Below the pieces are notes generated by a model, which saw only the letters and a list, made by a program, of their open reading frames with translations, did not search any database and was not told the origin of the DNA. A stretch of 32,857 bases of DNA from Solirubrobacteraceae bacterium (GTDB lineage Bacteria; Actinomycetota; Thermoleophilia; Solirubrobacterales; Solirubrobacteraceae): assembly GCA_030690545.1 (NCBI GenBank), contig JAUYGN010000071.1:1-32857 (forward strand), read 5' to 3'. Numbering within the stretch: the first letter of the stretch is position 1; every line of letters starts with the position of its first letter. Position numbers and translations under genes: made by a program. Below are positions 2,436 to 21,081 of the stretch, piece after piece.

Positions 2436-3461
2436 ATGAGTGCCCAGCCGACGATCAGCAGCGAACCCGTGCACGTGGGCGGCCCGTACTGGGAGGAGCT
2501 GTCCGTCGGCGATCGCTACGTCGAGTTCCCCGCGATGACGCTCACCGAGGGGCACGCGGCGCTGCACCAGTCGATCGTCGGCGACCGGCTGCGCCTGGCG
2601 CTCGACGCGACGCTCTCCGACAAGGTCGCCGGCCGCCGCCTGGCCCATCCGATGCTCGTCTGCGACGTCTCGATCGGCCAGTCGACGCTGCCGACCCAGC
2701 GCGTCATCGGCAACCTCTTCTACCGCCGCCTGATGCTCCGCCGGCTGCCGGCGATCGGCGACACGCTGACGTCGACGACGGAGATCGTCGCGCTGAAGCG
2801 CAACACGATCAAGGAGGGTCGCAAGCCGACCGGGCTCGCCGTCCTGCACATCGTCACGACCGACCAGCAGGACCGCGCGATCCTCGACTACTGGCGCTGC
2901 GCGATGCTGCCGATCTCGGACGTCGACGCATCGCAGCCGCACGCCGACGACCTCGACCGGTTCCCCGCCGACCTGCCGGCCGACGCGCTGCAGGCGACGC
3001 TCGACGGGATCGACCTCGGCGTCTACCGCAGCGAGGTCCCCGGCACGCACTTCGCCGACCTCGACGCGCCGACGACGTGGGCGCTCGACGGCGGCGACAG
3101 CGTCACCGCCGCGCCCGAGCTCGTGCGCCTGTCGCTGAACCTCGCCAAGGCACACAGCGACCCGGGCTCGCATCACTCCGGCCAGCGGCTCGTGTACGGC
3201 GGGCACACGATCGGCGTCGCCGCGTCGCACCTGACGAAGGTGCTGCCGAACCTCGTGACGATCATCGGCTGGCATCACTGCAACCACCTCGGCCCCGTCT
3301 TCGAGGGCGACGTGCTGCGCAGCACCGTGCACCTCGAGGGGACCGAGGCGCTGCCCGGCGGCGGCGGGCTCGTGACGCTGCGCGTCGAGGTCTCCGCGCA
3401 GCGCTCCGACGGCGCACTGGACGGCGTACTGGACTGGCGACTCGTGGGAGCGATGGCATGA
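2436..3461 (+). CDS. MaoC-type double-hotdog acyl-CoA dehydratase, mesaconyl-CoA hydratase-like
   Basis: This 341-residue protein has the length of two fused hotdog domains. The first (about residues 12-155) begins with GPYWEELSVGDRYVEFPAMT and carries TLTEGHAALHQ. The second (about 190-340) contains the substrate-pocket stretch GQRLVYGGHTIGVAASHLT followed by WHHCNHLGPVFEGD. This architecture is that of mesaconyl-CoA (2-methylfumaryl-CoA) hydratase and related acyl dehydratases, which reversibly hydrate a 2,3-enoyl-CoA dicarboxylate. The ATG at 2436 has a plausible GAGGT ribosome site. The stop overlaps the ATG of the CoA-transferase gene (ATGA), so the two act in one pathway. The mesaconyl/citramalyl assignment rests on that neighbour and on remembered family sequences. 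Another branched enoyl-CoA substrate is possible. Confidence 0.75.
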   Translation: MSAQPTISSEPVHVGGPYWEELSVGDRYVEFPAMTLTEGHAALHQSIVGDRLRLALDATLSDKVAGRRLAHPMLVCDVSIGQSTLPTQRVIGNLFYRRLMLRRLPAIGDTLTSTTEIVALKRNTIKEGRKPTGLAVLHIVTTDQQDRAILDYWRCAMLPISDVDASQPHADDLDRFPADLPADALQATLDGIDLGVYRSEVPGTHFADLDAPTTWALDGGDSVTAAPELVRLSLNLAKAHSDPGSHHSGQRLVYGGHTIGVAASHLTKVLPNLVTIIGWHHCNHLGPVFEGDVLRSTVHLEGTEALPGGGGLVTLRVEVSAQRSDGALDGVLDWRLVGAMA

Positions 3462-4618
3462 GCGACGAGGGCATTCTCGACGGGATCCGCGTGATCGAGG
3501 GATCGGCGTTCGTCGCCGCCCCGACGGCGGGCATGACGCTGGCGCAGCTGGGCGCCGACGTGATCCGCTTCGACGCCCCCGGCGGCGGTCTGGACTCCAA
3601 GCGCTGGCCATTGACGTCGTCCGGCGACAGCCTCTTCTGGTCGGGCCTGCAGAAGGGCAAGCGCTCGATCGAGATCGACCTGCGCTCCGAGGAGGGCCGC
3701 GAGCAGCTGTCGCAGCTGATCACGCTGCCGGGACCGGGCAACGGCATCTTCATGACGAACTTCCCCGCCCGCGGCTGGATGAGCTACGAGAAGCTCCGCG
3801 AGCGCCGCGAGGATCTGATCATGGTCGTCATGACGGGCAACCACGACGGCTCGTCGGAGGTCGACTACACCGTCAACCCGTCGGTCGGCTTCCCCGAGGC
3901 GATGGGCCCGCGCGACTCCGCCGTGCCGACGAACAGCCTGATGCCGGCATGGGACACGGCGATGGGCGGTCTCGCCGTCGTCGGCCTGCTCGCCGCGCTG
4001 CGCCACCGCGACAGGACCGGCGAGGGCCAGCTCGTCGAGATCGCGCTGTCGGACGTCGCGGTCGCGACGGTCGGCAACCTCGGCCGGATCGCCGAGGTCC
4101 AGCTGGAGGGCCGCGAGCAGCCGCGCGACGGCAACTACCTCTACGGCGCCTTCGGCGGCGACTTCCCGACGAAGGACGACCGCCGCGTGATGGTCGTCGC
4201 GCTGACCGGCCGCCAGTGGAAGGCGCTGAAGGAGGCGACCGGGACCGAGGGGCTGTTCTCCGCCGTGGAATCCGCGACCGGTCACGACTTCCGCGGCGAG
4301 GCGGGGCGCTACAAGGGTCGCGACCTGATCCGCGAGCTGCTGACGCCGTGGTTCGCCGAGCGCACGCTCGAGCAGATCCGCGAGGCGTTCGCCGGAACCG
4401 GGGTCTCCTGGGGCCCGTACCAGACCTTCAAGCAGCTCGTCGAGGAGGACGCACGCTGCTCGACGGAGAACCCGATGTTCACGATGGTCGCGCATCCGGT
4501 CGGCACGTATCTCACGCCGGCCTCGCCGCTCGTCTTCAGCAGGTCCGGCCGGCTGCCGGCGCGGCCGTCGCCGCGCCTGGGCGAGCACACCGAGGACGTC
4601 CTCGCAGAGCTCGAGTAG
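3458..4618 (+). CDS. mct: CaiB/BaiF (class III) CoA-transferase resembling mesaconyl-CoA C1-C4 CoA transferase
   Basis: A 386-residue class III CoA-transferase. The N-terminus (GIRVIEGSAFVAAPTAGMTL, then LGADVIRFDAPGGG) and the region around the presumed catalytic Asp166 (MPAWDTAMGG) match the family. So does the TGEGQLVEIALSDVA segment that follows. The combination of EGSAFVAAP, GGGLDSKRWP, FPARGW, EVDYTVNP and GNYLYGAFG closely recalls Chloroflexus 2-methylfumaryl-CoA isomerase (Mct), which moves CoA intramolecularly from C1 to C4 of mesaconate. That resemblance is from memory, not an alignment. It starts inside the stop of the hydratase gene and converges on the reductase at 4635. An intermolecular CoA transfer in mesaconate or itaconate breakdown is the main alternative. 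Confidence 0.78.
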   Translation: MSDEGILDGIRVIEGSAFVAAPTAGMTLAQLGADVIRFDAPGGGLDSKRWPLTSSGDSLFWSGLQKGKRSIEIDLRSEEGREQLSQLITLPGPGNGIFMTNFPARGWMSYEKLRERREDLIMVVMTGNHDGSSEVDYTVNPSVGFPEAMGPRDSAVPTNSLMPAWDTAMGGLAVVGLLAALRHRDRTGEGQLVEIALSDVAVATVGNLGRIAEVQLEGREQPRDGNYLYGAFGGDFPTKDDRRVMVVALTGRQWKALKEATGTEGLFSAVESATGHDFRGEAGRYKGRDLIRELLTPWFAERTLEQIREAFAGTGVSWGPYQTFKQLVEEDARCSTENPMFTMVAHPVGTYLTPASPLVFSRSGRLPARPSPRLGEHTEDVLAELE

Positions 4619-6552: not shown

Positions 6553-6735
6553 ACGGAACGCGAGTCTATCGCGCGATGTCGCGCGACCCCCGGTGGACCC
6601 GAGCGCGACCGGCGGGCCCACGCGCGAACGCGGCTCCCTCCGGCGGCTTTGGGAGACTAGGCAGCGTGGCGAGCCGCTCGCGCGGTGGCGCGTGACCGCC
6701 CGGTATCGTGGAAGTTCTTTGATTTAGCAAGTAAG

Positions 6736-6753
6736 GTATGTCTTGTGTCTATA
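6736..6753 (+). promoter_or_regulatory. Candidate CbbR site at the cbbR start
   Basis: GTATGT-N7-CTATA lies in an AT-rich island (about 6715-6760) that stands out from the surrounding GC-rich DNA. The same 6+7+5 arrangement recurs upstream of glpX at 15180-15197. On the minus strand it reads TATAG-N7-ACATAC, which fits the loose T-N11-A rule of LysR-type regulators. It overlaps the predicted GTG start, which would suit autorepression. Confidence 0.45.
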
Positions 6754-7692
6754 ACTTTGACGCAGCTGCGTAGCTTCCTCGCGGTCATGCGGGGCGGCTC
6801 GGTCACGGCCGCCGCCGACGAGCTCGTCGTGACCCAGCCGTCCGTCTCCGCCGCCGTCGCGGCGCTCTCGCGCGAGCTCGGCACTCCCGTCACCGAACGC
6901 GAGGGACGCGGCATCCGGCCGACCGCGGCCGGCAACGCCTTCGCGCCCTTCGCCGCCGATGTCATCGGCCTGCTCGAAGAGGGACGGCGCGCCGCCCGCG
7001 AGGCGGCGCACCTCGCCGATCGACGGCTGCGCCTGGCGGCCGTCACGACGGCGGCGGAATCCTTCGTGCCACCGCTCATGCGGGCGTTCGCGCAGAGCAA
7101 CGACTCGATCGGCCTGACGCTCGCCGTCGGCAACCGCGAGCAGGTCCTCGATCTCGTCCTCGACCACCGCGCCGACGTCGCGATCGGCGGGCGGCCACCA
7201 CGCGACCCGCGCGTCCAGGCGACGCCGATCCTGCCCAACGACTTCGTCCTGATCACCGCACCCGACGACCCGCACGCCGCCGGCAGCACGGTCGACGCCG
7301 CCGAGCTGGAGCGCCGCGTCTGGCTGATGCGCGAGCCGGGCTCGGGCACGCGGATCGTCAACGAGGAGTTTCTCGCCGCGGCCGCACTCGAGCCGCAGAC
7401 GTTGACGCTGGGCTCCAACGGCGCGATCAAGCAGGCCGCCCGCGCAGGACTCGGGATCGCGTTCATATCCCGGGCCGCGGTCGCGCTCGAGCTCGACCAC
7501 GGGCTGCTCGCGTCACTGCCCGTGCGTCATCGGCCGGCCTCGCGGCGCTGGTATGCGATGTGCTCGACCGTCGGACCGCGCCGCGCGGCCGTCGAGCGGT
7601 TCATGACGTTCGCCGCCTCGCCGACGGCCCGCGAGGCGCTCGCAAGCGGTTCGGAGCAGGCGATCGCCACGAGGCCCGTGCGCGGACGCTAG
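6745..7692 (+). CDS. cbbR: CbbR-type LysR family transcriptional regulator of CO2 fixation genes
   Basis: A 315-residue LysR-type activator. The winged helix-turn-helix is N-terminal (LTQLRSFLAVMRGGSVTAAA, then TQPSVSAAVAALSRELG). The effector domain carries features I associate with CbbR rather than LysR proteins in general: VGNREQVLDLVLDHRADVAI leading into GRPP at residues 149-152, REPGSGTR at 196-203 and SNGAIKQAARAGLGIAF at about 224-240. CbbR proteins sense Calvin-cycle metabolites and switch on the cbb operon. GTG 6745 is chosen because MSITLTQLRSF matches the family start and TAAGG lies eight bases before it. A GTG at 6685 would add 20 untypical residues. The gene is tail-to-tail with the end of the cbb operon, whereas the classical layout is divergent. 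Confidence 0.87.
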   Translation: MSITLTQLRSFLAVMRGGSVTAAADELVVTQPSVSAAVAALSRELGTPVTEREGRGIRPTAAGNAFAPFAADVIGLLEEGRRAAREAAHLADRRLRLAAVTTAAESFVPPLMRAFAQSNDSIGLTLAVGNREQVLDLVLDHRADVAIGGRPPRDPRVQATPILPNDFVLITAPDDPHAAGSTVDAAELERRVWLMREPGSGTRIVNEEFLAAAALEPQTLTLGSNGAIKQAARAGLGIAFISRAAVALELDHGLLASLPVRHRPASRRWYAMCSTVGPRRAAVERFMTFAASPTAREALASGSEQAIATRPVRGR

Positions 7693-8392: not shown

Positions 8393-9346
8393 CTAGCCCT
8401 GCGGAGTAGCGGACGCCGGCGCCTGCGCCTGATCGGCGCGCGTCCCCTCGCCGCCGAGCGCGACGGTGGCGCGTGCGGTGACGAGGTGGTAGAGCACGAG
8501 CACCTGGACGATCGCCAGCGACTCGGAGCGATGCAGCTCGGTGCCGACGGTGAACTCGCCAAGACGCTCGGAGCGCAGGTGGCTTGCGAAGTGCATCCGC
8601 TCCCAGACGGACTCCTCGATCGCCGAGCCGAGCGCTGGGTCGATGTCGCCGGGAACGAACAGCCGATGCTCGGTATCGCTCTCGTCGACCGTCACGCCCT
8701 TGCCGCCGGGCTCGGCGAAGTCCGTCAGATCGGGATGGACGAGGCCCTTGCGCAGGACGATCTCGGCGTCGAGATGCGACTGATCGCCGCGGCTTCCCGG
8801 CATGAACGAGACGACGAGGTCGGCCCAGCGCTGCTGCGGACGGATGTACAGCTCCGAGTCCGGCTCGCGGCGGTCGAGCTCCTCGAGGACCTGATCGGTC
8901 GTGTAGCCGCGGCGCGAGCAGTCGCGCTGGACCTTCCACTGACGGCGCAGCTCCTCCGGCGGGGCGAGGAAGACACGCACGTCGTAGCAGTCGCGCAGCG
9001 CCTCGGTGTGGTAGCCGAGCAGGCCCTCGATCAGCGTGAACTGCGCCGGCTTCGTGTAGACCGGCGGACCGAACGTGCCGTCCTTGTGCTGATAGACGGG
9101 CTTGAGGATCGCATTGCCGGCGCGCAGCTCGGCGAAGTGGCGCTCCATGATGTCGATGTAGTTGCAGTCCGGGTGCAGCGGCGTGATCTGATGCTCGGCG
9201 CGCTGACGACGGTCATAGCGGTGGTAGTCGTCGGCGGCGACGTGCGTGACGTTGTTCTCGCCCAGCATGCGGACCAGCCCGCGGGAGAGCGTGGTCTTGC
9301 CGGTTGCGGAGTCGCCGACGACACCGAGGATGATCGGACGGGGCAC
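8393..9346 (-). CDS. cbbP: Phosphoribulokinase
   Basis: Phosphorylates ribulose 5-phosphate with ATP to ribulose 1,5-bisphosphate, the RuBisCO substrate. The P-loop GDSATGKTT occupies residues 11-19. The PRK/uridine-kinase segment HVAADDYHRYDR and the sugar-phosphate region TPLHPDCNYIDIMERHFAEL follow, and then IEGLLGYHTEALRDCYDVRV with the Walker-B-like acid. At 317 residues it is a little longer than most bacterial PRKs. The final 20 residues (TRADQAQAPASATPQG) are low-complexity. The start is a GTG with AGGAG seven bases upstream, 16 bases after the cbbX stop. Its place behind cbbLSX makes the assignment to PRK rather than uridine kinase secure. Confidence 0.95.
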   Translation of the reverse strand: MPRPIILGVVGDSATGKTTLSRGLVRMLGENNVTHVAADDYHRYDRRQRAEHQITPLHPDCNYIDIMERHFAELRAGNAILKPVYQHKDGTFGPPVYTKPAQFTLIEGLLGYHTEALRDCYDVRVFLAPPEELRRQWKVQRDCSRRGYTTDQVLEELDRREPDSELYIRPQQRWADLVVSFMPGSRGDQSHLDAEIVLRKGLVHPDLTDFAEPGGKGVTVDESDTEHRLFVPGDIDPALGSAIEESVWERMHFASHLRSERLGEFTVGTELHRSESLAIVQVLVLYHLVTARATVALGGEGTRADQAQAPASATPQG

Positions 9347-9362: not shown

Positions 9363-10301
9363 CTAACTGACGTTACCAGGCGCGGTCGGCTTGGCGTCGT
9401 CGTCGGGCGATTCGCCCTCCTCGTCGCCGAACAGCGAACTCGCGAGAATGTCTTCGGCCTTGATCGTCACGAGATCCTCGCGCGTGAGGTCCTCGCGGTT
9501 TGAGTACAGGCGGCCGGCCTGCCGCATGCGGGCACGATCGATCGCGTTGCGGATGCTGCGCCCGTAGGCGAAGCGCGGGCGCTCGACGCGCCGGTTGATG
9601 TACTCCCGGAACGCCTCACGCGCCTCGGGCTCGAACTCGTACTGCTGCTGACCCATCATGAGATCGGCGATCTGGACGAGCTCGTCGGGCGTGAAGTCGG
9701 GGAAGTGCAGGTGGTGGGCGACGCGCGAGCCCATGCCCGGATTGGACTTGAAGAACGTCTCCATCCGGTCCTTGTAGCCGGCGAGGACGACGACGAGGTC
9801 GTCGCGCTCGGTCTCCATGACCTGCAGCAGGATCTCGATCGACTCCTGGCCGTAGTCGCGCTCGTTCTCGGGGCGGTACAGGTAGTACGCCTCGTCGATG
9901 AACAGCACGCCGCCCTTGGCGCGCTTGAGCACGTCGCGCGTCTTCGGCGCGGTGTGCCCGACGTACTGCCCGACGAGGTCGTCGCGCGTGACGGAGACCA
10001 CCTTCGGCTTGGCGATGTAGCCAAGCCGATGGAGGATCTCCGCCATCTTCAGCGCGACGGTCGTCTTGCCGGTACCGGGATTCCCGGTGAACGTCATGTG
10101 CAGCGAAGGACGCGACGAGTCGAGCCCTGCCTCACGACGCAGCTTGTCGATCACGAGCAGCGCGGCCATCTCGCGGATGCGCTCCTTGACCGGTCCGAGG
10201 CCGACGAGCTCGCGATCGAGCTCGGACAGGACCGACTCGACGGCGTCTGCGTCGTCGAGCGCCTTGACGGCGCTCGGCAGGGTTTCGATCGTCTGTGCCA
10301 C
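9363..10301 (-). CDS. cbbX: CbbX, red-type RuBisCO activase (AAA+ ATPase)
   Basis: A hexameric AAA+ remodelling enzyme that pulls on the large-subunit C-terminus to eject inhibitory sugar phosphates from RuBisCO. Walker A GNPGTGKT is at residues 73-80 and Walker [12 protein letters not shown] at about 132-142. Between them lie the pore-loop region [20 protein letters not shown] and GHTAPKT. Sensor and arginine-finger segments follow ([14 protein letters not shown]). At 312 residues it is normal length plus an acidic tail ([14 protein letters not shown]). The GTG start abuts the cbbS stop with no gap. Its presence indicates that the RuBisCO here belongs to the red-type lineage. Confidence 0.96.
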
Positions 10302-10766
10302 CTACTCGCCCGCCGAGCCGTTCGTCGACCCGGTCTTGGCCGCGTAGCGCGAGCCGTGCGGGTTCTGATCGACGGCGTACGACGTGATCGTGTAGCGGAT
10401 CACGCGGTCGTTGGTCTCCTGGCGCTCGAGCTTGAAGCCGGGCTCGACCGCCGGACGGTTGACGATGAACGACATCGCCGACGTCTGACGACCCAGCGAG
10501 CGGTCGTAGGCGACGATCTTCACGTACACGTCGCCGTGCGCCTCGATGCAGGCACGCACGTCGCGCATCGCGACGTCGACCTCGTCCTCGGTGAGGTCGA
10601 ACATCGGCGGCGACCACATCTCCCACAGCCCGTTGCGCGGGTGCGGGTCGTCGGTGTACTCGACCATGATCGACCAGCCGTTGCGCAGCGCGTAGGCGAC
10701 CTGCGCCTGGATCTGCTCGTCGGTCAGGTCCGGCAGGAAGGAGAACTGTCCCTGTGTGAGTCTCAT
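10302..10766 (-). CDS. cbbS: RuBisCO small subunit, form I
   Basis: This 154-residue small subunit begins [19 protein letters not shown] and continues with the conserved core [19 protein letters not shown] and [13 protein letters not shown]. The segment [19 protein letters not shown] matches the family's strand and helix order. Red-type subunits carry a C-terminal beta-hairpin extension, seen here around [21 protein letters not shown] further polar tail of about 20 residues ([17 protein letters not shown]) makes it long even for that class. ATG 10766 has the strong site GGGAGGA and lies 14 bases behind the cbbL stop. CbbS caps the L8 core to make L8S8. Confidence 0.94.
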
Positions 10767-10780
10767 GTCTGTGTCCTCCC

Positions 10781-12282
<1,502 letters not shown>

Positions 12283-15242: not shown

Positions 15243-16613
15243 ATGCTCTTCCGCCAGGTGACACACGACGATCTTGGCTGCGCGTCCTACCTCGTCGGTG
15301 ACGACGGGGCGGGCGTCGCGGCGGTCGTCGACCCGCGCCTGGAGATCGGCGTCTATCTCGACCTTGCACGGTACATGGGCGTGCGCATCGAGCACATCCT
15401 CGAGACCCACAACCACGCCGACCACGTCTCCGGACACGGACGGCTCGCCGTGGCGACGGGCGCGACGATCCACATCCACCGCCTCGCCGAGCCCGACTAC
15501 GAGCACGAGACGTTCGACGACGGCTGGGAGCTCGAGCTCGGCAGCGTCGTCGTGCGCGCGCTGCACACGCCCGGTCATCGCCCCGAGCACACCGCGTTCG
15601 CGCTCGTCGACCGCGCCCGCGGCGACGCTCCCTGGGCGGTCCTCAGCGGCGACTCGCTGTTCGTCGGCGACGTCGCGCGGCCCGACCTCGCGATCGACCG
15701 CGACGAGGGCGCGCGCGGGATCTTCGACAGCCTGCACGAGCGGCTGCTGACGCTGCCCGACAGCTGCGAGCTGTGGCCCGGGCATCTCGGCGGCTCGATG
15801 TGCGGCGGACCGGGGATGGACATGAAGACGTCCTCGACGATCGGCTACGAGCGCGCCCACAACGCGTTGCTGCGCGAGCCCGACATCGGGCGCTTCGTCG
15901 AGCGCTCGATCGCGACGCTCGGGCCGCAACCGCCGAACTTCGAGGCGATCGTGGCACTCAACCGCGGCGACCTGCTGACCGACGACGTGCCGGCACGACC
16001 GCTCACGCCGCGCCAGGTGCAGCTGAAGTGCGGCGAAGGCGCGCTCGTCGTCGACGTCCGCACCGAGCAGCAGTTCGACGAGGCGCACATCCCCGGGGCC
16101 GTCTGCGTCACGGCGCTCAGCGCCGGCTTCGGAAGCCGGCTGGCCTGGATCGCCGACCGCGACCAGGAGCTGCTGCTCGTCGGCCGCGACGACGACGACG
16201 CACAGCACGCCGCGCGGCTCGCAAGCGCGGTCGGCATCGACAAGCTCGCCGGGTACCTGCACGGCGGCATGACGAGCTGGCGCGAGGAGCGCCGGCCGGT
16301 GGGGCAGATCGAGCGCCTGGCGATCGGCGACCTGCCCGCCCGCGCGGACCGGCTGCAGATCCTCGACGTGCGCGAGCGGGCCGAGTGGGACGCCGGTCGG
16401 ATCCCCGGCTCGACGCACGTGCCCTACCACGACATCGACGCGATTCCGGACGGGATCGACCCGGCGCGGCCGGTCGCCGTCGTCTGCGCGTCCGGCCAGC
16501 GGGCCGCGGTCGCCGCGAGCCTGCTCGCGCGCCACGGCGCCGAGCACGTCGTGCACGTCGTCGACGGCGGCGTCGGCGCCTGGGAGCGCGCCGGGCACCC
16601 GATCGAACGCTGA
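15243..16613 (+). CDS. Metallo-beta-lactamase fold hydrolase with two rhodanese domains (persulfide dioxygenase-like)
   Basis: About 456 residues in three domains. The N-terminal MBL domain (about 1-240) has THNHADHVSGH, the TPGHRPEHT histidine and LSGDSLFVGDVARPDL, the layout of ETHE1/CstB-type persulfide dioxygenases that oxidise glutathione or CoA persulfide with a mononuclear iron. The first rhodanese domain (about 255-350) has LLLVGRDDDDAQ where the catalytic Cys loop should be, so it is probably inactive. The second (about 360-455) has CASGQR and is predicted active. ATG 15243 is preferred because MLFRQVTHDDLGCASYLVG is the family's usual N-terminus. ATG 15228 is possible. It probably detoxifies or oxidises sulfane sulfur. 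Confidence 0.87.
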   Translation: MLFRQVTHDDLGCASYLVGDDGAGVAAVVDPRLEIGVYLDLARYMGVRIEHILETHNHADHVSGHGRLAVATGATIHIHRLAEPDYEHETFDDGWELELGSVVVRALHTPGHRPEHTAFALVDRARGDAPWAVLSGDSLFVGDVARPDLAIDRDEGARGIFDSLHERLLTLPDSCELWPGHLGGSMCGGPGMDMKTSSTIGYERAHNALLREPDIGRFVERSIATLGPQPPNFEAIVALNRGDLLTDDVPARPLTPRQVQLKCGEGALVVDVRTEQQFDEAHIPGAVCVTALSAGFGSRLAWIADRDQELLLVGRDDDDAQHAARLASAVGIDKLAGYLHGGMTSWREERRPVGQIERLAIGDLPARADRLQILDVRERAEWDAGRIPGSTHVPYHDIDAIPDGIDPARPVAVVCASGQRAAVAASLLARHGAEHVVHVVDGGVGAWERAGHPIER

Positions 16614-16704: not shown

Positions 16705-17283
16705 TTACCCGCGCAACTGCTCGAGCGCCTCGGGGGTGTCGACATCGGTGGCGTCGCACAGATGCCCGCACTCGATGCGGTGGACGCCGATCGCCTTCAT
16801 CACCTGGCGCGCGCCGGCGTCGCCCTCGAGCTGCGTGAGCTGCGCGAAGTAGTCGCTGCCGAGCGCGACCGGGTGGCCGGGCATGCCGTCGTAGACGGCG
16901 CGCGCCCGCGTCTGGGCGCCGTGCTCGGCGGCGAGGCCGGCGAAGCGGGCGATCACCTGCGGCGTGATGCGCGGCATGTCGCCGAGCGTCAGCACGACGG
17001 CGTCGGCATCCGCGATCGCCTCGATGCCGCAGCGCAGCGACGCCGCCTGCCCGTCGGCCCAGTCCTCGCAGACGACGGGCTCGGCAAGGCCGAGGTCGAC
17101 GCCCGCGCGGATCTGCTCCGCGCGGGCGCCCAGCACGACGACGATGCGCTCGATCGCCGGCACCGCCTCGACGGCACGCAGCGCGTGCTCGAGCAGCGGG
17201 ATCCCATCCAGCTCGGCCAGCTGCTTGGCCGTCGAGCCGAAGCGCGAGCCGGATCCCGCCGCCAGGACGACGCCTGCGATCAC
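16705..17283 (-). CDS. mocA: MocA-type molybdenum cofactor cytidylyltransferase
   Basis: A 192-residue nucleotidyltransferase of the MobA/MocA family. The signature VVLAAGSGSRFGSTAKQL starts at residue 5, with TLGDMPRITPQVI as the metal-binding acid segment and a late GDAGARQVM. The chain ends with the C-terminal CDATDVDTPEALEQL (normally D-I-D-T-P). CTP-using members attach CMP to Mo-molybdopterin to form MCD, the cofactor of CO dehydrogenase and xanthine dehydrogenase family enzymes. That fits its place as the last gene of the cox operon. The GTG start overlaps the coxM stop by four bases (GTGA). CTP over GTP preference is inferred from context. Confidence 0.88.
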   Translation of the reverse strand: MIAGVVLAAGSGSRFGSTAKQLAELDGIPLLEHALRAVEAVPAIERIVVVLGARAEQIRAGVDLGLAEPVVCEDWADGQAASLRCGIEAIADADAVVLTLGDMPRITPQVIARFAGLAAEHGAQTRARAVYDGMPGHPVALGSDYFAQLTQLEGDAGARQVMKAIGVHRIECGHLCDATDVDTPEALEQLRG

Positions 17284-18122
17284 GCGGCGCTTGCCGTCGT
17301 CAGCGCGCGACGCGTCAGCACCCGCGCGAGATGCTGCTTGTACTCCGGCGTGGCGTTGAGGTCGCCGAGCGGGCTCGTCGCATCGGCGGCGAGCGCGGCC
17401 GCCGCCGCGATGTGCTCGGCGTCGAGCGGCTGGCCGCGCAGCGCGTCCTCCGCCGCGCTCGCGCGCAGCGGCGTGGCGCCCATGTGCGTCAGCCCGATGC
17501 GGACGTCCTGGCAGACGCCGCCGTCGGACTTGACGAGCGCGCTGACGCCGACCATCGCCCAGTCCTCGGCGCGGCGGTTGAACTTCTCGTAGCCGTAGCC
17601 GTAGCCGGTCAGCGCCGGCAGCCGCACCTCGGTGAGCACCTCACCGTGCGCGACGGTCGTCGTCAGGTAGCCCTCAAACAGGTCGGCGGCCGCGATCTCG
17701 CGCTCGCCGTCTGGGCCGCGGACGACGACCGAGCCATCGCACGCGAGCAGCACGGCCGGCAGGTCGGCGGCCGCGTCACCGTGAGCGAGCGAGCCGCCGA
17801 TCGTGCCGCGGTTGCGCACCTGCTGGTCGGCGATCTGCGTGGCGACCGCCGCGACGAGCCCCATGTCCGCGCGCGCCTGCAGCTCGGCATGGCGCGTCAG
17901 GGCGCCGATCCGAAACGAGTCGCCGCCGGTCTGGATGCCGCGCAGCTCGTCGACCCTGCGCAGGTCGACGAGCAGCGAGGGCGCTGCGAAGCGCAGCTTC
18001 ATCAGCGGCACGAGCGAGTGGCCGCCGGCCAGCAGCTTGGCGTCCTCCCCACCCTCCGCCAGCAGCGCGATCGCGTCGTCGACGGACTCCGCCACAGCGT
18101 AGTCGAACTCGGCGCCGATCAT
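17280..18122 (-). CDS. coxM: CoxM-like FAD-binding subunit of a molybdenum hydroxylase
   Basis: The 280-residue medium subunit carries electrons from the molybdenum subunit's iron-sulfur partner to FAD. The FAD motif AKLLAGGHSLVPLMKLRFAAP is near residues 28-48 and the second motif TIGGSLAHGDAAADLPA near 120-136, both standard for CoxM/CutM proteins. The C-terminal CO dehydrogenase flavoprotein domain (KFNRRAEDWAMVGVSALV) is complete. Its ATG overlaps the coxL stop (ATGA) and its stop overlaps mocA, so all are translationally coupled. Length and motifs give no sign of damage. Confidence 0.93.
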   Translation of the reverse strand: MIGAEFDYAVAESVDDAIALLAEGGEDAKLLAGGHSLVPLMKLRFAAPSLLVDLRRVDELRGIQTGGDSFRIGALTRHAELQARADMGLVAAVATQIADQQVRNRGTIGGSLAHGDAAADLPAVLLACDGSVVVRGPDGEREIAAADLFEGYLTTTVAHGEVLTEVRLPALTGYGYGYEKFNRRAEDWAMVGVSALVKSDGGVCQDVRIGLTHMGATPLRASAAEDALRGQPLDAEHIAAAAALAADATSPLGDLNATPEYKQHLARVLTRRALTTASAA

Positions 18123-20583
18123 GACCGACCTCCTTCGGGAATCGTCGGGCCCGAGCCTGCCGAGCCTTCGCCCTGCGCGGGCAGCGACGCCCCCTGCTCG
18201 CTGTCGCGCGGGCCGTTGCCGTCGCCGCGCGCCTGCTCCAGTGCCTGCCAGACGCGCAGCGGCGTGAGCGGCATGTCGATGAACGAGATGCCCTCGTGGC
18301 GCAGCGCGTCGATCACCGCGTTGACGATCGCCGGCGTCGCCGCGATCGTGCCCGCCTCGCCGATCCCCTTGACGCCGAGCGAGTTGGATGGCGACTTCGT
18401 CTCCGTGCGATCGGTCTCGAAGCTCGGGACCTCCATCGTCGTCGGCAGCGCGTAGTCGACGAACGTGCCGGTGACGAGCTGACCGCGCTCGTCGTAGACG
18501 ACCTGCTCGTAGATCGCCTGGCCGATGCCGTGCACGATGCCGCCGTGGACCTGGCCGTCGATCAGCATCGGGTTGACCGCCGGCCCGCAGTCGTCGACCG
18601 CGACCCAGCGCACGACCTCGACCTTGCCGGTCTCGGGATCGACGTCGACGACGCAGACGTGCGTGCCGAACGGGAAGACGAAGTTCGACGGGTCGTAGAT
18701 CAGCGCCTGCTCGAGGCCGAGCTCCATGCCCTCGGGCATCTTCGTCGCGTCGACGTAGGCGCAGCCGGCGACCTCCGCGAGCGTCATGCCCTGGTCGGGA
18801 TCGCCCTTCAGCGAGAACCGGCCGTCGCGCACCTCGATGTCGGCCGGATCGGCCTCGAGGTTGTGCGCGACGATCTCGCGCGCCTTCTGGGCGATCTTCT
18901 CGGCCGCGTGCGCGACCGCGACGCCGCCGACCGACAGCGAGCGCGAGCCGTACGTGCCGAGGCCCATCGGGCCCGTCGCGGTGTCGCCGTGGACGATCTC
19001 GACGACGCTCGGATCGGTGCCGACGCGATCGGCGACGATCTGCGCGAAGCCGGTCTCGTGGCCCTGGCCGTGCGGCGACGCGCCCGTGTAGACGGTCACC
19101 GACCCGGTCGGATGGACGCGCACGAGCGCCGACTCGTAGAGGCCGATCCCGAGGCCGAAGCCGCTCGGACCGACCGCCCGCGAGGGCGCCAGGCCACAGA
19201 TCTCCGTGTACGTGGAGAACCCGATCCCGCGCAGGACGCCCCGCGAACGCAGGTCTGCCTGCTCGGCGCGGAAGGCCTCCATGTCGACGATCTCCAGCGC
19301 CCGGTCGAGCGCCGCCTCGTAGTTGCCCGAGTCGTACGTGATGCCGTATGGCGTCTCGTAGGGGAACTGCTCGGGCGCGATGAAGTTCCTGCGGCGCAGC
19401 TCGATCGGGTCGATCCCCAGCTCCTCGGCGAGCTGATCGATCATGACCTCGAGCATGTGCGTCATCTCCGGCCGGCCCGCACCGCGGATCGCGTCGGTGA
19501 AGAACTTGTTCGTCAGCACGCCGACGATGTCCGTCTGCACCACCGGGATCGCGTAGCAGCCGGTCATCACGAACGCCCCGAGCTCCGGGATCATCGGCGT
19601 CAGCAGACCGAAGTAGGCGCCGAGGTCCTGGATGATCTTCGCGTGGAAGGCGGTGATCTTGCCGTCGGCCGTCGCGCCCATGCGGACGTAGTCGACCTGG
19701 TCGCGGCCGTGGTGCGAGACGGCCATGTTCTCCGAGCGCGTCTCGATCCACTTGACCGGCCGGCCGAGCTTGCGCGACGCCCACGCGCACATCGTCTCCT
19801 CGGCGCAGACCTGCAGCTTGCCGCCGAAGCCGCCGCCGACCTCGGGCGCGATGACGCGGACCTTGTCCTCGCTGATGCCCATCTGGACGGCGTAGAAGAG
19901 CCGCAGCAGGTGCGGCACCTGCGTCGAGGACCAGACCGTCAGCGCGCCGGCGCGGTACTCGGCGATGCAGCCGCGCGGCTCCATCGCCGCACCGGCGGTG
20001 CGGTGGTTGACGATGCGCCGCTGCACGACGACGTCGGAGGCGGCCAGCGCCTGCTCGATGTCGCCGCCGCCGCCCATCGACCACTCGTGCGTCTTGTTCG
20101 TGCCGAGCGACGCGTGGACGAGGACCTCGTCCTTCAGCGCCTGCTCGACGTCGATGACGACCGGCAGCGACTCGTACTCGACCTCGACGTCGGCGGCGGC
20201 ATCGACGACGACGTACTTGTCGTCACCGATCACGAGCGCGACGGCGTCGCCCATGTGGCGGACGTGGCCGCGTACGAGCGGCCAGCGCTCAGGGGTCTTG
20301 ATCTCGACGCCGGGCGGTGCCCAGGCCATCGGCAGCGGGGCGAGCAGGTCGCTCATGTCCTCGCCGGTGTAGACGGCCTTGATGCCGGGACGCGCCAGCG
20401 CGGCGGAGGCGTCGATCGCGACGACCCTGGCATGCGCCTCGGGCGAGCGCACGACGGCGGCGTGCAGCATGCCGGGCAGCGCGAGGTCGTCGACGTAGGT
20501 GGCGCGGCCGGTGATCAGCCGCGGATCCTCCTTGCGGCGCAGCGACTGGCCGACGTGCTTGGTGGGTGGAACCTCGACGGTGC

Positions 20584-20587
<4 letters not shown>
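18119..20587 (-). CDS. coxL: CoxL-like molybdopterin-binding large subunit, form II-type active site
   Basis: An 822-residue large subunit of the xanthine oxidase/CO dehydrogenase family. N-terminal [20 protein letters not shown] and the cofactor-binding [17 protein letters not shown] are standard. The C-terminal [20 protein letters not shown] holds the catalytic Glu. The active-site loop reads AIRGAGR at residues 366-372. Form I CO dehydrogenases have AYRCSFR with the Cu-binding Cys, and form II enzymes have AYRGAGR, so this is form II-like with Tyr changed to Ile. CO is therefore not an assured substrate. A 35-residue polar tail follows the last conserved helix. The ATG overlaps the coxS stop. 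Confidence 0.92.

Positions 20588-21081
<494 letters not shown>

Follow-up and report, generated by a model that had tools for sequence, protein, structure and literature searches.

A hydratase and CoA-transferase gene pair with a putative role in mesaconyl-CoA conversion near Calvin-cycle genes of a Solirubrobacteraceae bacterium

Described C5 routes and the gene pair

The carbon-conserving conversion of glyoxylate to pyruvate is familiar mainly from Chloroflexus and from bypasses built by engineering. We analyzed a stretch of 32,857 nucleotides from a Solirubrobacteraceae bacterium (assembly GCA_030690545.1, contig JAUYGN010000071.1, positions 1-32,857, forward strand), called the window below, in which a gene for a double-hotdog hydratase similar to Rv0216 and mesaconyl-coenzyme A (CoA) hydratase (2436..3461, plus strand, 341 residues) precedes a gene for a CaiB protein that resembles mesaconyl-CoA C1-C4 transferase (Mct) (3458..4618, plus strand, 386 residues). 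The two open frames, both picked by a codon-usage gene caller, overlap by the four bases ATGA at 3458..3461 (plus strand), as stated in a preliminary description of this DNA. Judged by their sequences, the two proteins probably catalyze two C5 steps in a variant of the 3-hydroxypropionate bi-cycle, as a module that would join propionyl-CoA and glyoxylate to pyruvate and acetyl-CoA.

The closest described transferases, the Mct proteins of Chloroflexus aurantiacus and Roseiflexus castenholzii (8apq, 7xkg; PMC9813914, PMC9196870), belong to the same clade as the window CaiB protein and have the key residues in common with it, but the gene neighbors differ, since the window lacks an SmtAB-MCL-Mch cluster. 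Mesaconyl-C1-CoA hydratase (Mch) and MeaC (PMC10164722) share the double hotdog and an Asn/His pair with the window hydratase, whose nearest solved structure is that of Rv0216 of Mycobacterium tuberculosis (2bi0), a member of the same subfamily. The partial 3-hydroxypropionate bi-cycle reported in PMC6593406 for Kentron, 'Ca. Thiosymbion', Accumulibacter, and further organisms is, like the window, a case of Mct chemistry outside the Chloroflexi; the description of those genomes includes Mch and Meh, whereas the window has a different hydratase, and the sentence of that paper on the distribution of the pathway names no Actinobacteria. Two man-made routes use the same C5 steps. The engineered glycolate-to-pyruvate bypass of Shih 2014, as outlined in PMC9393500, employs MCL, MCH, MCT, and MEH and joins these steps to ribulose-1,5-bisphosphate carboxylase/oxygenase (RuBisCO), and the reductive citramalyl/ethylmalonyl-CoA pathway presented in PMC10521678, a designed pathway from acetyl-CoA and HCO3− to pyruvate, joins them to Ccr. 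The genes of the window and its genome, in contrast, are natural.

In the bi-cycle variant that we favor, the hydratase would interconvert β-methylmalyl-CoA and mesaconyl-C1-CoA, and the transferase would shift CoA from C1 to C4 within one molecule, Asp166 attacking the thioester and the trapped CoA re-attacking. Lyases encoded elsewhere would form β-methylmalyl-CoA from propionyl-CoA and glyoxylate and would split citramalyl-CoA into pyruvate and acetyl-CoA, with an Ich-like hydratase as the candidate for the conversion of mesaconyl-C4-CoA to citramalyl-CoA. The net reaction would turn glyoxylate and propionyl-CoA into pyruvate and acetyl-CoA with no loss of carbon. The glyoxylate may stem from malyl-CoA cleavage, from RuBisCO oxygenation, or from both.

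The CaiB protein and the hydratase

The CaiB protein, the sole PF02515 (CaiB-family) protein found in the genome, matched TIGR04253, the model for 2-methylfumaryl-CoA isomerase, with 493 bits (E 6e-148, residues 5-384), the second-best family model reaching 119 bits. Solved Mct proteins were matched with 487 (7xkg) and 471 bits (8apq), followed at 81 bits by formyl-CoA transferase, which was compared by score only, outside the tree. The tree was built around a scan of named genomes in which at least 561 Mct relatives were confirmed and the best-scoring 80 loci kept, a set that is hence skewed toward the window's kind; six of these 80 were excluded, two because their flanks were short and four because the hydratase or Mct region was only partial on a short contig, and the set was completed by the window and two plasmid loci. 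In the resulting 105 rows, the 77 Mct rows including the window formed one clade (support 100/100), with the Chloroflexales Mct nested inside it and 28 CaiB paralogs apart, so that the likeness to 2-methylfumaryl-CoA isomerase noted in the preliminary description stood up both to the profile search and to the tree. The paralogs were CaiB proteins from the same loci and included both CaiB genes found in classical clusters, presumably SmtA and SmtB.

The key residues of Mct were taken from the structure papers (PMC9813914, PMC9196870), the former of which describes Arg47 and Tyr136 as holding the free carboxylate of mesaconate. The window protein keeps Leu43, Arg47, Arg75, Asn100, Phe101, Arg104, Ser132, Glu133, Asp135, Tyr136, and the catalytic Asp165 (Mct numbering; Asp166 in the window protein), and has Leu in place of Ile74. 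Arg47, Asn100, Asp135, Tyr136, and Asp165 were each present in all 77 Mct rows, Tyr136 in none of the 28 paralogs; position 43 was Leu or Ile in 76 of 77 Mct rows and Asp in every paralog, and Arg75 and Arg104 were variable (62 and 63 of 77). By its clade and its catalytic, substrate, and 'cork' residues, the window CaiB protein is most likely an Mct.

For the hydratase, NCBIfam profiles gave no useful name. Its best solved relatives were Rv0216 (296 bits), 4e3e (83 bits), assumed here to be Chloroflexus Mch, and 8hgn (71 bits), presumably the structure of the MeaC paper. According to that paper (PMC10164722), eight residues surround bound malate, and six of them are identical in the window, in all 60 subfamily rows, and in all 10 Mch rows. 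The window hydratase has the catalytic pair N235/H240, corresponding to Asn226/His231 of Mch/MeaC, and retains Arg142, Asn85, Tyr248, and Gly249; Ser79 is conservatively replaced by Thr, and every one of the 60 subfamily rows has either Thr or Ser there. The alignment was restricted to matches of more than 250 residues, with duplicates and further unnamed stretches dropped, and its subfamily rows comprised 45 from Mct loci, the window included, and 15 from other hydratase stretches, one of them also with Mct. The window protein shares 24-27% identity with three rows of Mch and 52% with two of Rv0216-like proteins; by sequence it is a distant homologue of mesaconyl-C1-CoA hydratase within the Rv0216 subfamily, and it looks like a dicarboxylyl-CoA hydratase. 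The two-gene module of mesaconyl-CoA hydratase and Mct-like transferase that had been proposed for this locus thus holds for the transferase, whereas the hydratase lies outside the Chloroflexus Mch subfamily and relatives of the pair often have a third gene.

The hydratase subfamily was present in 20 of 396 genomes of a phylum sample (E ≤ 1e-25), and a plasmid search yielded seven records, all distant. In one family (f35), probably Mycobacterium-like, the Rv0216-like hydratase adjoins an acyl-CoA dehydrogenase in 9 of 10 genomes (L159, L162-L169), once together with a lyase, unlike the window, in which the partner is Mct. These neighborhoods provide a lead for the substrate of Rv0216. Titles and abstract openings retrieved in a literature search contained neither a substrate for Rv0216 nor a connection of this protein with FadE3, mesaconyl-CoA, or methylsuccinyl-CoA.

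Recurrence of the pair and the C5 genes of the genome

In a sample of the class, Mct was found in 21 of 299 genomes (E ≤ 1e-70). Among the 80 named loci, an Rv0216-like hydratase gene lies directly upstream of Mct in 46, with a median of 19.5 nucleotides between match ends, so that the pairing exceeds what chance would give. In nine classical loci, Mct-MCL-Mch follows two CaiB genes; of the others, 20 lack such a hydratase in the stretch, three carry one elsewhere, and two are too short. In 16 of the 46 hydratase-Mct loci a lyase gene lies within 400 nucleotides of the hydratase gene, and at L046:10549-12408 a single frame of 619 residues immediately before Mct encodes a CitE-like lyase fused to the hydratase; relatives often have a lyase gene as the third member of the unit. 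This fusion caused a protein clustering to merge lyases with hydratases, and the grouping was discarded after pairwise BLAST had separated them. In three alphaproteobacterial loci (L094, L101, L123) Mct is followed by a Meh-like gene. The titles and abstract openings covered by our literature search described no hydratase-Mct module. The Mct of locus L106, from a record titled as a Klebsiella pneumoniae metagenome-assembled genome, was close in the tree to that of L064, titled Deltaproteobacteria, and the former title is probably wrong.

The window genome is 98.6% complete, and gene absences are therefore only suggestive. Searches for malyl/citramalyl-CoA lyases and for genes of the ethylmalonyl-CoA pathway, which the preliminary description had proposed, both produced candidates. 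Three HpcH/HpaI lyases are encoded, on contigs C36, C84, and C1. The C36 lyase shares 70-71% identity with the lyases in the operons of L033 and L036, so the lyase matching the operonic type sits on another contig than the pair, and the C1 lyase is of the same type as the malyl/citramalyl-CoA lyase of Chloroflexus, with 508 bits against 4l7z. With these lyases in the genome and the CaiB protein grouping with Mct, neither outcome that the preliminary description would have counted as a refutation occurred. The C1 locus (L029:1254-10710) combines this lyase with an adjoining Ich-like hydratase, a SucCD-like pair, a FadE3-like dehydrogenase and, by eye, phosphoenolpyruvate carboxykinase. The SucCD-like pair is distinct from the true SucC of the genome (240 versus 438 bits) and is a possible malate-CoA ligase. 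An itaconyl-CoA hydratase is described in PMC12290011 as acting also on mesaconyl-C4-CoA. Isocitrate lyase was not found in the genome by a model that matched in 8 of 14 control genomes. From the enzyme families, their residues, the recurring pairing, the lyases with the Ich-like gene, and this missing isocitrate lyase, all of them observed, we infer the activities, their direction, and the physiology, along with the origin of the glyoxylate and the step assigned to the Ich-like protein.

Several observations weigh against a role in the bi-cycle variant. The CaiB protein misses the curated cut-off of TIGR04253 (725 bits), as does a betaproteobacterial Mct from a classical cluster (657 bits), while that of Chloroploca passes (788 bits), and its Arg314′ is replaced by Gly, an exchange seen in 40 of 77 Mct rows. 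A Pfam search gave no match for the hydratase, not even to PF19315 (MC_hydratase), which one subfamily member, L079, does pass (32 bits, cut-off 26.5), and 57 of the 60 subfamily rows, like the window protein, have Ile where Mch/MeaC has Phe71; the Pfam miss and this exchange might point to a different substrate or to the C4 ester. Mct was absent from the stretch around the hydratase in all 10 genomes of family f35. The RipB model reached only 129.5 of 340 bits on the Ich-like protein, and a single Chloroploca query, run without a positive control, found no Chloroflexus-type Meh in the genome.

A rather unlikely alternative, compatible with the bi-cycle variant, places the transferase in a branch of the ethylmalonyl-CoA pathway. 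Ccr and a MeaA-type mutase would lead to methylsuccinyl-CoA and a dehydrogenase to mesaconyl-C1-CoA, which Mct would divert via mesaconyl-C4-CoA and citramalyl-CoA, for a net conversion of acetyl-CoA and CO2 to pyruvate; the hydratase would serve the glyoxylate branch. In agreement with this, the genome contains Ccr (504 bits, cut-off 379) and, 5 kb from it, the gene of a MeaA-type mutase, truncated by the contig end. Its product shares 65-68% identity with proteins that carry the annotation meaA or with plasmid copies that have none, Ruegeria 'protein meaA' being at 66.2%; we take meaA to be ethylmalonyl-CoA mutase. Two more mutases are encoded, a full methylmalonyl-CoA mutase on C74 and another one on C113. 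The isocitrate lyase that was not found points in the same direction, as does Ccr in 21 of 21 Mct genomes of the class sample. However, 91 of the 103 genomes sampled from the order already have Ccr, and the co-occurrence of Mct and Ccr, with P = 1.4e-11 across the class, drops to P = 0.054 within the order, for which reason it was not retained as proof of a link; Mct looks like an addition to a Ccr-bearing background. A Ccr search (E ≤ 1e-60) of 46 of the 80 named Mct genomes gave matches in 20, namely 15 of 25 with hydratase-Mct (four of them weak, below 235 bits), 0 of 9 classical, and 5 of 12 others. Since 10 of the 25 hydratase-Mct genomes had no Ccr match, the pair does not need Ccr.

The dehydrogenase of this branch is a further point against it. 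None of ten matched dehydrogenases of the genome has more than three of the eight arginine/alanine signature residues given for methylsuccinyl-CoA dehydrogenase in PMC5798300, and none has the N-terminal extension. The FadE3-like dehydrogenase beside the C1 lyase (407 bits to FadE3) was an attractive candidate because such dehydrogenases adjoin Rv0216-like hydratases in the f35 genomes; it was rejected for this step and left unassigned, as only two of its eight signature residues match. Elsewhere, genes of this kind do accompany Mct: on an Azospirillum plasmid Mct lies near a dehydrogenase of 563 residues with all eight signature residues, and on a Paraburkholderia plasmid it overlaps a dehydrogenase matching 8ciw with 687 bits and having five or six of the eight, depending on the alignment. 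Near the Paraburkholderia overlap (L181:5302-8224) lie a MaoC gene resembling Meh and a gene for a CoA ester lyase, and this cluster possibly constitutes a methylsuccinate route.

The pair might also act in the breakdown of C5 acids in their free form (itaconate, mesaconate, methylsuccinate, citramalate); these would be activated with CoA, and Mct and the hydratase would assist their conversion to citramalyl-CoA and on to pyruvate and acetyl-CoA. We consider this quite unlikely. The SucCD-like pair, the lyase, and the Ich-like hydratase do occur together at the C1 locus, but the RipB score given above and the best RipC score among the genes tested (189 of 375 bits) are far under the cut-offs, and Mct was the sole CaiB protein found in a search that did not extend to other families of activating transferases. 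Of the two roles considered in the preliminary description, co-assimilation of glyoxylate and propionyl-CoA is thus the better supported, and use of mesaconate or itaconate is the weaker one, since a second CaiB-type transferase for acid activation was not found. A similarly improbable reading, that the pair performs an intramolecular CoA shift and a hydration on another dicarboxylyl-CoA in the breakdown of some other branched dicarboxylate, could appeal to ThnP, the intramolecular CoA-transferase of naphthalene breakdown presented in PMC11659651, to the 20 Mct loci without such a hydratase, and to the Ile at Phe71, but the mesaconate-binding Arg47 and Tyr136 of every Mct row, the lack of Tyr136 in the paralogs, and the lyase neighbors, which fit C5 acids, argue against it.

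Calvin-cycle neighborhood and implications

On its 5′ side the pair is preceded by genes for a macro-domain protein and a MobA-like protein. On its 3′ side follow a convergent gene for a pyridine-nucleotide-disulphide oxidoreductase, a gene for a LysR regulator (6685..7692, plus strand) that is nearest to CbbR but below the model cut-off (208 of 450 bits), and Calvin-cycle genes on the minus strand: phosphoribulokinase (8393..9346), CbbX (9363..10301; 469 bits, cut-off 459), and the small (10302..10766) and large (10781..12232) subunits of RuBisCO. The RuBisCO-bearing genome of the preliminary description is thus confirmed. Further downstream, at 15243-16613 (plus strand), a protein has two rhodanese stretches in its C-terminal part and, by eye, an N-terminal part resembling a metallo-beta-lactamase (persulfide dioxygenase-like) domain. 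Positions 17280-21012 (minus strand) encode a CoxL/M/S-like molybdenum hydroxylase, the large subunit of which reaches 712 of 991 bits with the aerobic CO dehydrogenase model and carries the motif AIRGAGR, which is form II-like. With a score under the cut-off and this motif, CO oxidation is not to be assumed.

A match to CbbL, Prk, or CbbX was present in 5 of 124 loci, namely the window, L030 and L047 (one genome), L048, and L160. At L160:1423-9009 (genome G322, family f22 of the phylum), one strand carries the hydratase, Mct, phosphoribulokinase, a C-terminal piece of transketolase, glyceraldehyde-3-phosphate dehydrogenase, and a CbbR-like regulator, divergent from RuBisCO, whose small subunit was judged by eye. 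This pair is only 48% and 59% identical to the window pair and is therefore not a recent copy. In two other members of the genus (L031/L049, L032/L050), cbb genes were absent from the stretch. A table in PMC6593406 lists both the Calvin cycle and the C5 reactions for 'Ca. Thiosymbion'. Salvage of RuBisCO-derived glyoxylate by the pair, a link that was noticed post hoc, is a real but unproven possibility. We tentatively propose, as a possibility well short of probable, that in RuBisCO-bearing actinobacteria the pair is a native bypass linked to the Calvin cluster, which would convert glyoxylate from the oxygenase reaction and propionyl-CoA to pyruvate and acetyl-CoA without loss of CO2, and that, together with Ccr and the MeaA-type mutase, Mct would also close a natural route from acetyl-CoA and CO2 to pyruvate, which the publications consulted present only as a man-made design.

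If the preferred assignment to the bi-cycle is true, its C5 chemistry would be far wider spread than the lineages named in the passages of PMC6593406 on its distribution, and it would employ another subfamily of hydratases and in some cases be located together with the Calvin cycle. The pair and its relatives would then offer natural enzymes for the engineered glycolate-to-pyruvate bypass and for the designed citramalyl route, and they would provide a testable guess for the substrate of Rv0216.

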